A stretch of DNA of 64,000 bases from Zygnema cylindricum. Its lineage: Eukaryota > Streptophyta > Zygnematophyceae > Zygnematales > Zygnemataceae. Below the pieces are notes generated by a model. That model saw only the letters and a program-made list of their open reading frames with translations, did no database searches and was not told the origin of the DNA. The position numbers and the translations under genes are program-made. Numbering within the stretch: the first letter of the stretch is position 1; the number at the start of each line of letters is the position of its first letter. Location: contig JBBHKE010002983.1 in assembly GCA_037447655.1 (NCBI GenBank), positions 62,001-126,000 of the forward strand. Reading direction: 5' to 3'. Positions 24,280 through 43,558 of this stretch are shown here, in pieces.

Positions 24280-25604
24280 TCAATTTTGCACAAAAATTCG
24301 ATTCATCAAGGGGATGAATGTAGCTTTGGGCTGACCTGCTGCCCGGAAACGCTGCCCGAAAAACTTTTTTTTTTTTAACTTTTCGCAGGAAAGGCCCGGA
24401 TTTAAATCGGAAGAGAGAGATTTTATCGTCAAATTAAAAAGAATTTCAATGCTTTCACATGTATCTTCCTGCACAAAAAAAAAAAAAAAAAAAAAAAGCA
24501 AAAATACATAAGTTATACATATATAAAAAAGGGAAAAGAAACCCACACTAATTATTGTAATTGTAATAAGTTTTTTTTTTTTTTTTTTTTTCCCGTTATT
24601 TTTGTTGCCAGAAAAAAAAATGGACAGGTTTTGGAAGAACAAAACATGGGACGAAAAAAATAAAAAAAGGAACTAAATAAATTAAAGGAAAAAAAAAAGG
24701 GGGGGGGGACTAGTAATGATAGCAGTAAAACAACCAAAAGGCAAAAAAATCAACAAAAAAGTAAAAAGATTATATGAACCTAGGAAAAAAAATCAAAAAA
24801 TATAAATAAAATAAAAAGAGAAAAAGAAAAAGAACGAATAAATAAACACATAAATAAGTCAAAAAATAGCTAAATAAGTAAATAAATAAACAGATAAATT
24901 AATAAAAATAAACAGGTTAATAACTCACTTTTTGCACACTATAAACGATTCGACATTTATTTGTTTTCGGGTTCCGAATGTCGAGAATTTCTCCGATATT
25001 TAAAGGACCATGGATATCCTGGAAAAAAATAAATAAATAAATAAAGGAAGTAAGAAAGAAAACAAACAAAAAAAAAAAAAAAAAAAAAAAAAAAAAAAAA
25101 AAAAAAAAAAAAGGAAGAAAAAAAAAAAAAAAAAAAAAAAAAAAAAAAACGACAGAAAAAAAGAAGGAAAAAAGAAATGTGAAAGGAAACGCGTTGTTTT
25201 TCAATATTACACGACAAATTTTTCACATTAAATTAGAAAAGCAAACGCTCTTGAAATTAAAAACCTTAAGGAGCAAAACCTTCGCTTACAAATAGTTAAT
25301 AATAATAATAACTAAAAACACAAAATTAAATGAAAAAGAGAGAGAGAAAGGCGGGTAAAGGGGAGGGGGGTATCTGTATAAGTTTGAGTGCATACAAAAA
25401 ATTTACAGGGTTTAACCCAAAAATAGGAAAAAAAAAAAAAGGACAAAATATAAACGGATTCAAAAAATAAAATAGTAAGTACTTTCCATAATTTTGGATT
25501 TTTTGCGATTAATTGTTCCTCTGTCATCCCATTGGCCAAAGCGATCATTTCAATCGAATCATTTTCTTGGACGGTATAGCTTTCGGGCAGCTCATCAAAA
25601 TTTC
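24280..25604 (-). CDS. LysM exons and C-terminus of the mosaic protease
   Basis: Exons 25604-25483, 25018-24929 and 24468-24280. LysM 1: SYTVQENDSIEMIALANGM, TEEQLIAKNP, then GPLNIGEILDIRNP across the intron. LysM 2: RIVYSVQKEDTCESIEILFN, then NPGLSCEKL followed by four Lys from a 12-A run, then GQRF. The Cys-containing GDTC/NPGLxC form is typical of green-plant LysM. LysM binds N-acetylglucosamine polymers in known families. The frame closes with TGA at 24280, taken as the C-terminus. An alternative donor at the A-run (gtttttc) could add exons, but none was found. Confidence 0.8.
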
Positions 25605-28600
25605 CTGCTGCCCGCCAAAAAAGGAAAAAAAGAGGGAAAAGAACCTGGTCATTCCACTAAAAAAATGCTGTCAATCACAACAAAAATCAATGCAATCGTA
25701 AAACTTATTTAAAAAAAAAAACAAAAAACAGAAGAAAGAAGTTTTAAACAAATTACCATAAATAGTGTGGACTTTATCAAAACTTTCCCAGACGTCAGAA
25801 AAGAAAGGACAAAATAAAAAAAAACCATGAAAAGTGGGGATTATAGTCAAACTCTCCCATAAACAAAAAAGAAAAAAGGGGAGTGGATTATTCTCAAACT
25901 TTTCCATTACACAAAAACTGAAAAAGTACACTAAAAACAGTGAGAATCTATTCAAACTCTTTGAAAAACAGAAAAACCATTAAATAATAATAAAAAAGCA
26001 TAAATGGTGTGGATTATTCAAACTCTTCATATACTACAGAGCCATCACCATAAACACTGTGGACTAGACACAAAACTCCCTCGCACACAGAAAAAATATT
26101 ACAGGCAGACAGAAAGACTGACAGACAGACGGTTAGATAGATAGAGGCAGAGAGACAGAGAGACAGAGAGACAGAGGAGAGAGAGGGAGAGTGGGGTAGA
26201 GAGAGAGAAAGGAAGAGAGAAAGGGAGAGAGGGTGGGGTAGAGAGAGGACGAGAGAGGGAGAGAGAGACAGAGAGAGAGGGAAGAGAGAGAGAGAGCGAG
26301 AGAGAGAGAGGAGAGAGAGAGAGAGAGAGAGAGAGAGAGAGAGAGAGAGAGAGAGAGAGAGAGAGAGAGAGAGAGAGAGAGAGAGAGAGAGAGAGAGAGA
26401 GAGAGAGAGAGAGAGAGAGAGAGAGAGAGAGAGAATCACATACACATACATCCTCTGACACATCCACACGTACATAAACAAACACGACAAATAGTGTGGA
26501 CCCGACTCACAGCATACAGAAACCTCCTCAAAGAGGCAAAAGCACTTAAAAAGAAGCCCCAACAGAAAAAGAGACGAAAAGATGTTAACTTTATTCCTTT
26601 GTTAGAATCTTCAGGATACCTCTACCTTTGTTAATAACGCAAACTGGTATTCCAGTTCGCGTTATCTAGCTAGTTAGAGCATCTTAGTCTATGCTATCTA
26701 CTTAGCTCAGTTTCCTGTTTTCTCAGTTTATGTTTTAGTTTCAGTTTTACATTTCCAGTTTCTATTTCTGTTCTCTGCACCTGGCGCTTCTTAAAAGCGC
26801 ACACAGTAGCTCCTGCAGTTTCTGACAGCAGATCTCATCCTTAGCTTTTACTGACAACTAAAGATCCTCATTTGCCCTTTCGGCAAATGAGCCAAGTGAC
26901 CCTTCAGAGTCACATAGGCTCCCTAGATCTTGAAAAGTCACTCTCGTGACTTTGCCCATTCTATTTAAACGACTGCTCTGTACTTTTCAATACAATTAAG
27001 AAATACACTTTTGTCTTTTTTTACCTTTGTCCTTTTTCATATTCATTTCTTTCCTACTTTCTGTCCGCTGCCATGTCATCTACTGCTATAGGTTATGGGC
27101 CTTTCAGCACTAATTCCAACACCGTTGCTAAATTTAATGGCTCGGACTTCTATGGATGGAAGTATCAGATCGAGCACATTTTGCGTCGGGAGAAACTCTG
27201 GTCTATTATCAGCGGAAGCGAAGCAGAACCTTCCGATGCTGCATCCAAACCTGCTTGGATACTTCGCAATGAGGAAGCGCACTCGCGATTGGTTCTTGCT
27301 CTTGAGCCTTCCCAACTTGGCCTAATCCGTGACGCTAGTTCTGCTCACGACGCCTGGAAATTGTTGACCAGTGCGTACGAAAACCAATCCTGGTCCAACA
27401 AACTCCTACTTCGTCGACAACTTCTCTCTTCTCAGAAACTTCCCTCTGACAGTATCCAGCAATACATACACAATATCAAATCTATTGCCGGACGCCTGCG
27501 CAGCATCAACTCTACTGTATCTGACGAAGATATTATTACGGCGATCTTGGGAGGACTGCCGCCCTCCTATTCCGCATTCATTTCATCTATCGACAACTCT
27601 TCTGTCGCTATCACTATTTCGTCTCTCACCACAAGTCTGGTACATGAAGAGACAAAACAGAATTTGTCTCCTGGTGTCGCCTTGGCGACCTATCATCCCT
27701 CCACTCGGCCACCCAAGATCTCCTCCTGTCGCTATTGTCGCGAACTCGACCACGTCATCGACAACTGTCCTGCTCTTAAACGTAAGCAGGACCGTCAAGG
27801 AGGTCCTGGTCGTACAGGTGGGCGTGGACGCCAGGGTGGCCGCGGCAATTATCATGGTCACGCCTCTACTGCTGAAGCAATTCAACCGGTGGTACCTGAA
27901 TATTTCGCGCCGACAAATCCATTCGTCTATTCCCATTCACCTGGATATGGCAATGCTCCTCTTGGCGAATATACTCATTCGTCGCCCATTGTCCAGCCGT
28001 ACACTGTTTATCCTTCCGGTACAGCTCCAGCTGTCGCCGGACAATTGCCGGCTGTTCCATATCACCCGAACCAGCATGATTACGGATTCGCCCTTGTCAT
28101 ATCCGCGGTAACCGATCCACTTATACAGAACGACTCTTGGATCGTAGACTCTGGAGCGTCGCATCACTTATCCTCCCGCTCCGATTGGTTTACATCTATA
28201 TCGCCCCTTCATTCTCCCATGACGATATTACTTGGTAACAATGCCGCCTTGACGGCCACCCATATCGGCCAGATCACCACTATCGGTCGCCCCAAACGTG
28301 ACATTACCAATAACTCTTTCTCATGTCCTCTTCGTCCCTGGACTGAAAAAGAACCTTTTCTCAGTTGGTGCCGCCCTTAATCAAGGCGCCACTGCTGTCT
28401 TTTCCACAACCACTGTCACGTTCTTTTCATCAACTCAAGCTCAAGTAGGACTTGGCATCAAATCTGGATCTATCTATGTCTTATCTCATTTTCAATACGT
28501 TGGATCTGCCAACTATGCTATATCACCGTCGCCTCATTCATTCCCACGATGGCACCTGCGATATGGCCACCTTTCTGCCTCTAGTCTGCAAGCATTAAAC

Positions 28601-43055: not shown

Positions 43056-43439
43056 CATAAAAAAAAACACAAAACAGTAAAGATTTTTTTTTTTTAATAA
43101 TAACAATAATAAAATAAAAGACACATAGATTTCATGATCCATGATCAGTGATTTTTATTTTCCCTGCAAAAATATCATTATGAAAACAAAAAAAAAAACA
43201 CTCGTTGATTTTGCAAAACTTTTGTGTTTAGTTATTTGTTTTCTTCTTTTAAATCAAAAGAAAAATATACACCATAAGACAAAAAGAAAAAGGTTTTTTT
43301 TTTTTTGGAAAATGATTGATTACCATCATTTTGTGGTTTCGATTTTTCTTCCTTGGCATGCTACTCTCATATTTCTTATATTTTAATAATATTAATAAAT
43401 ATAAATATAGGAAAAACACCACTACCACTACTATTTTTT

Positions 43440-43558
43440 AAGGTGATTTTCTCATTATAGTTTTCTCGAAAAAGATGCGAAATTCGTCCATTCGTCAAAA
43501 AAATAAAATTACACAAAAAAACGATTTGAACAAATATTACAAAAACAGAAATTTTCAT
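43440..43558 (-). CDS. Possible signal-peptide exon
   Basis: An ATG at 43558 opens a frame starting MKISVFVIFVQIVFLC and continuing NFIFLTNG, a good secretory signal. It lies upstream of the lectin exons on the same strand, where an N-terminal leader is expected. The donor cannot be chosen (several GT in GTAGTGGTAGTGG), and no unbroken chain of exons to 42783 was established. Confidence 0.3.

Follow-up and report, generated by a model that had tools for sequence, protein, structure and literature searches.

A gene of 12 exons occupies positions 43558 to 24280 on the minus strand of a 64,000-nucleotide window from Zygnema cylindricum (assembly GCA_037447655.1, contig JBBHKE010002983.1, positions 62,001 to 126,000; positions below are those of the window, the whole stretch analyzed). 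The encoded protein joins a ricin-B lectin, a papain-type protease, two EGF-like modules and two LysM modules in one frame. Its 11 introns have GT-AG ends, the exon phases are compatible and there is no internal stop codon, which reproduces the structure proposed by a first-pass annotation of the same DNA. The exon sum given there, 1953 nt (650 codons), was not reproduced: the joined exons come to 2022 nt, 69 nt more, comprising 673 codons and a stop (673 amino acids). In a 13-exon version of the model (see below), coding GC content is 0.44 and that of the introns ranges from 0.22 to 0.57. The long introns measure 3.1 kb and 8.1 kb, the latter (8061 nt) lying between the second EGF module and the first LysM module.

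Exon 1 (43426..43558) contains the ATG and a hydrophobic stretch resembling a signal peptide (11-residue Kyte-Doolittle mean up to 3.14), and ends at the donor GTG/gtagtg; comparison with the proteins of relatives lent it no support from any of them. Two lectin exons follow. The first (41082..41228) encodes the end of trefoil repeat 1 and the start of repeat 2 and matches residues 32-64 of P0001 (32 bits), one of the three closest homologues (P0001, P0002 and P0003, described below). The second (40527..40787) carries two QxW motifs, QLW at residues 101 and 166, and an extra GE-rich insert that derives from a purine-rich simple repeat. The protease begins in exon 40024..40185, which matches all three homologues, behind a conserved linker with the core SRHAS, and continues through the exon with the catalytic cysteine (38766..39043; CGACSIF; 70 bits against P0001), a middle exon (38329..38472; 49.3 bits against P0001 and 48.9 against P0002) and the exon with the catalytic histidine and asparagine (34993..35206; THAVTVVGYG and RNSFG; 102 bits against P0002).

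Each EGF module is exactly one phase 1-1 exon of 141 nt. The first (34360..34500) scores 59 bits against P0001 and matches the EGF family, and the second (33666..33806), 57 bits against P0003, includes the best EGF stretch (residues 503-527). LysM module 1 starts in exon 25483..25604 (37 bits against P0002); a phase 0-0 exon (24929..25018), within the LysM stretch 550-595, supplies its second part and the start of LysM module 2, and the rest of module 2 lies in exon 24336..24468, which has the donor CAG/gtcagc and is 70% identical to P0001 over 27 residues. One module per phase 1-1 exon is the expected signature of shuffled modules; besides the EGF exons, both lectin exons and the first protease exon are of phase 1-1. 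A further protease exon, 37727-37676, was tried and dropped because its phase clashes with that of the next exon, and the relatives can be aligned without any residues at this place. Long simple repeats rich in pyrimidines lie at 31754-33748 and in several introns, where they are open in several frames; similar ones occur in two coding exons.

The first-pass annotation had also named the four kinds of domain. We scanned the joined protein with Pfam profile hidden Markov models, comparing whole-protein scores with the curated cut-offs, and each kind was above its cut-off: Peptidase_C1 (PF00112) with 122.1 bits against 20.7 (4.6e-35), LysM (PF01476) with 38 against 20.9 (1.6e-9), Ricin_B_lectin (PF00652) with 34.8 against 29 (2.2e-8), RicinB_lectin_2 (PF14200) with 33.9 against 25.6 (5.4e-8) and, marginally, EGF (PF00008) with 22.5 against 21.5 (1.4e-4). 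In the 13-exon model, LysM and EGF were each matched by two stretches when E values up to 1 were admitted. In the alignment with the relatives the EGF cysteines are kept and in register, and repeat-coded inserts are visible within the lectin and protease exons.

Homology searches returned 61 proteins, with E values of 8e-124 to 2e-116 for P0001, P0002 and P0003 against 2e-35 for the next. These three are unnamed predictions (source "lgn"), 38-41% identical to the Zygnema protein over 83-90%, and lie in unbroken frames on separate contigs; the longest of these contigs measure 2.9 to 3.7 kb, and the three are therefore probably transcripts. Like the Zygnema protein they combine, in one frame, the lectin, the SRHAS linker, a papain domain containing CG[AS]CSIF, a pair of EGF modules and LysM modules, P0003 sharing this layout from inside the lectin on. 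The alignment of P0001 and P0002 spans all the exon joins between the first lectin exon and LysM 2, and that of P0003 covers those after its start. That lectin, protease, EGF and LysM belong to one gene in this order, as first proposed, is thus strongly supported by single frames in P0001 and P0002 and by P0003 from inside the lectin onwards.

Identity extends through all modules. For P0001, P0002 and P0003, respectively, it amounts to 40/109, 39/111 and 28/61 residues in the lectin, 101/213, 107/214 and 100/212 in the papain part, 21/44, 21/43 and 21/43 in EGF 1, 18/50, 22/50 and 23/50 in EGF 2, and 43/96, 36/98 and 39/95 in LysM 1-2. A tblastn search of the window with the three proteins gave 29 matches of at least 30 bits, and none in a reversed-sequence control. 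Twenty-five of the 29 run in protein order and the other four are cross-matches between the EGF modules; all 25 matches of at least 35 bits fall inside the gene.

A fourth relative, P0068, was found by profile. It is a partial protein with ricin-B (43 bits) and papain (65 bits) matches that stops inside the protease, and shares with the Zygnema protein the lectin and the protease. P0001 and P0068, unlike the Zygnema protein, score just above the cut-off of PF03498, which we take to be another trefoil family. Ahead of its lectin, P0002 shows a hevein-like cysteine pattern in residues 1-50, which reaches 16 bits with PF00187, below the cut-off of 27.8, and may add a third type of sugar-binding module to the family.

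Papains rely on an active-site Gln, Cys, His and Asn for catalysis. All four are kept in the Zygnema protein (NQATCGACSIF, THAVTVVGYG, RNSFG), also when it is aligned to solved papains; 166 distinct sequences of solved structures match it and, among the best 60 of these, the plant papains 1cqd and 1s4v come first. A Trp usually follows the catalytic Cys of papains, though it is not strictly defining. Its place is taken by Ser in all five members (the Zygnema protein, P0001, P0002, P0003 and P0068); in the Zygnema protein, Phe replaces the Trp of NSWG. P0003 has Ser instead of the catalytic Asn, and P0068 ends ahead of His and Asn. The linker with the core SRHAS stands just ahead of the protease in 5/5 members, and we speculate that it might serve as a short pro-region.

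Both ends of the gene deserve separate comment. The stop at 24280 is probably a read-through of exon 24336..24468, since splicing from a donor at 24336, which is compatible in phase, gives a tentative exon at 23485..23600 (minus strand) with a good acceptor, a fitting phase, a stop and possibly a third LysM-like module. The 13-exon model that includes it extends the frame to 693 residues. The added exon aligns weakly to the relatives. In pairwise local alignments none of its residues was aligned, Pfam gave no third LysM stretch, and the exon was not among the best profile matches. At the other end, the lectin has two QxW motifs and a degenerate GSFW, and its first trefoil repeat is short. A candidate exon for the missing part (42696..42783, minus strand) has an open frame and poor splice sites; a profile made from the heads of three relatives did not pick it out, and it remains unconfirmed. 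P0001-P0003 run about 100 residues beyond the end of the Zygnema gene in the alignment. Neither these last residues nor hevein-head exons were found in the window by tblastn (among its minus-strand matches) or by profiles run on 1290 minus-strand open fragments of at least 15 residues (best E-values 0.44 to 2.1).

Fifty-seven of the 61 homologues come from Closterium. By a hand count of the precomputed Pfam table, 48 of the 57 have a legume lectin, 23 have LysM and 19 have both. The table gives no EGF for them, and PF00008 stayed below its cut-off in the three that we scanned (P0005, P0010 and P0028); their EGF stretch appears as nearly invariant cysteines in a 29-protein alignment of P0001-P0003 and 26 further proteins, 25 of these from Closterium. 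Closterium proteins such as P0004, P0010 and P0028, which are 29-30% identical to the Zygnema protein over 61-66%, share with it the papain domain, two EGF-like stretches and LysM, in the same order, as seen in the alignment and in the identities to P0005 and P0010. They differ in having a legume lectin (PF00139), often with leucine-rich repeats (LRRs), where the Zygnema protein has ricin-B; PF00139 gave no match in the Zygnema protein in the Pfam scans. In addition, the four Closterium proteins that we read keep the Trp after the catalytic Cys, which is Ser in the Zygnema protein.

We built an unrooted tree of the papain domain with 33 rows, selected among 108 fetched proteins and the Zygnema protein, leaving out the partial P0068. 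The Zygnema protein groups with P0001-P0003 (100/99), separately from a group of 18 Closterium rows (100/96). The tree carries long-branch warnings, the Zygnema row included, and leaves undecided whether a single fused ancestor gave rise to both the ricin-B and the Closterium group. The most economical reading of the sequences would be a shared papain-EGF-LysM core with a different lectin in front, which does not imply one fused ancestor.

The first-pass annotation knew of no other protein with a ricin-B-type lectin before the protease and EGF modules between protease and LysM. The ricin-B variant does stand as new, and in the open-access literature searched, covered mostly as titles and abstracts, we found no published account of ricin-B, papain, EGF and LysM in one protein. 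The layout itself is not unique, recurring in P0001-P0003, with its lectin-protease half in P0068 and the papain-LysM combination in Closterium; the algal papain-LysM protease family is known, so far as unnamed predictions. Cysteine proteases with LysM, which the annotation gave as reported in volvocine algae, were not confirmed there by a literature search aimed at them, the one paper listed being unrelated to judge by its title. The portions of a 2019 survey used here record C1A peptidases combined with LysM, and EGF combined with ricin-B in chlorophytes and/or bryophytes (PMC6362431).

Two known systems resemble parts of the protein. Plant papain-granulin proteases (P0074 and P0077, presumably of the RD21 type) likewise place a small module rich in cysteine behind their papain domain, but they contain an I29 prodomain (PF08246) and granulin (PF00396), neither of which was seen in the Zygnema protein. 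The second is the Marasmius oreades agglutinin (MOA), in which, to our knowledge, EGF and LysM modules are absent. According to the parts of the account used here, MOA is a fungal chimerolectin with an N-terminal ricin-B lectin and a C-terminal papain-like cysteine protease described as calcium-dependent, and its toxicity to nematodes needs both parts (PMC8408931). The likeness to the Zygnema protein is one of layout only, and no sequence named MOA was among the best 60 of the 166 matching solved sequences. MOA shows that a papain-like protease joined to a ricin-B lectin can act as a glycan-guided toxin.

The surroundings of the gene are rich in retroelements. The 8061-nt intron between EGF 2 and LysM 1 contains a Copia-type retrotransposon on the plus strand (26583..31650; gag-pol frames identified by eye) flanked by long terminal repeats (LTRs) of 287 nt (26583-26869 and 31364-31650). 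These are 100% identical, and the insertion is therefore probably very recent. About 80 bp downstream of the gene lie nested Copia-type elements (12926..23405, plus strand; frames by eye), the inner one at about 17215-22347, with repeats at 12926-13225/22996-23295 (98%), 13234-13336/23303-23405 (91%) and 17215-17514/22048-22347 (95%). Two long frames of a further Copia-type gag-pol were seen by eye at 56032-60768 on the plus strand. Beyond the nested elements, a four-exon gene for a plastid PAP_fibrillin protein (8080-9852, plus strand; 1.6e-24) is convergent to the protease gene. Of its 232 matching proteins the two best are P0109 (50% over 85%) and P0110 (49% over 87%), and the third has the label Mesen1, presumably Mesotaenium (56% over 63%); land plants follow close behind, in part with greater identity across shorter stretches, and no Closterium protein was seen among the best 120 of the 232. 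Together with the Closterium origin of 57 of the 61 protease homologues, these matches indicate a streptophyte host, probably a zygnematophyte. An exon for a DUF1295/steroid-reductase-like membrane protein lies at 234-695 on the minus strand (7.8e-34).

Taken together, we consider it fairly probable that this single gene, which would be nuclear, encodes a secreted papain-type endopeptidase that is held in place by glycans. The N-terminal ricin-B lectin would bind one sugar epitope and the C-terminal LysM modules a polymer of the N-acetylglucosamine (GlcNAc) type, with the two EGF modules as spacers, and the tethered protease would cut proteins on the glycan surface that holds it. The idea of glycan-binding modules at both ends of the protease, already put forward in the first-pass annotation, is consistent with the domains, and a cell-wall or chitin-like target, as suggested there, would be plausible.

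Several observations weigh against this reading. The gene model was read from genomic DNA. With exon 1 spliced directly to the lectin, trefoil repeat 1 is short compared with P0002 and P0068, and the last ~100 residues of the relatives were not found in the window. Sugar binding by the lectin and the LysM modules is something we infer and that sequence cannot tell. The precomputed Pfam table lists ricin-B for 1 of the 61 homologues (P0001); P0003 reaches 15 bits with PF14200, below the cut-off, and P0002 has no ricin-B match at E up to 1, so for these two it is the alignment that identifies the lectin. No NCBIfam model scored above its cut-off on the Zygnema protein, the two matches both being far below, and the predicted structure of P0001 is poor (mean predicted local distance difference test 50.8, predicted template modelling score 0.33). 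The I29 inhibitor prodomain (PF08246) gave no Pfam match in the Zygnema protein at E up to 10 or up to 1, so that activation would need another control. The changes of Trp to Ser after the Cys and of Trp to Phe in NSWG may alter activity. Some relatives may even be inactive, since P0003 lacks the catalytic Asn and P0065, a more distant papain-LysM relative from Closterium, has, judged by eye, Ser near residue 25 where the catalytic Cys is expected.

The surface on which such a protease works could be foreign or the alga's own. It is quite possible, though on the whole doubtful, that the enzyme acts on the wall or mucilage of Zygnema itself, for instance in cell separation or gamete release, and not in defence. 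A matrix enzyme would suit glycan tethering, and the survey, in the portions used here, records C1A-LysM proteins from non-vascular lineages and reports that M11, another lectin-linked peptidase type of algae, degrades the wall in Chlamydomonas (PMC6362431). However, nothing ties the gene to any life-cycle stage, and in Closterium the copies are many and carry another lectin, which looks more like diversification to meet a variety of targets. We consider outward defence, directed at microbes with chitin walls or glycoprotein coats (chytrid parasites, for example), somewhat more probable than a role in remodelling the wall or mucilage of the alga itself.

We regard as unlikely a further possibility, that the gene is real by descent and this copy is decaying, Copia insertions and growth of simple repeats having deprived it of the C-terminal tail and of some of the lectin, so that the full protein would no longer be made. 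The tail of the relatives was not found in an interval bounded by the convergent PAP_fibrillin gene, nested Copia elements start some 80 bp beyond the gene's final exon, an intron holds a further one whose LTRs are identical, and inserts coded by repeats interrupt the lectin and protease exons. Yet 673 codons run without a stop or frameshift, and splice sites, catalytic residues and EGF cysteines are kept. Finally, we rejected as very improbable the view that neighbouring lectin, protease and EGF-LysM genes were joined by chance splice signals in a model made from genomic DNA with introns of 3.1 and 8.1 kb, since P0001 and P0002 carry all four parts in a single frame and the relatives' matches keep the protein order in the window, the EGF cross-matches apart.

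Returning to the glycan-tethered protease, we advance a broader proposal tentatively, and hold it to be rather unlikely as it stands: that zygnematophytes have a lineage-specific set of secreted, glycan-guided proteases in which one papain-EGF-EGF-LysM core received exchanged N-terminal aiming modules for a chimerolectin-like extracellular defence. These modules would be ricin-B in Zygnema, a hevein-like module plus lectin in P0002 and a legume lectin with LRRs in Closterium.

In the Zygnema protein a single molecule combines a protease with lectins of two types. It stems, probably, from the group of algae most closely related to land plants, and suggests a common protease core on which different algae carry different lectins. 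Vascular plants, according to the portions of the 2019 survey used here, did not retain combinations of C1A with lectins (PMC6362431), and these algae may therefore display a weapon used outside the cell, or a tool for the wall, that was lost in vascular plants.

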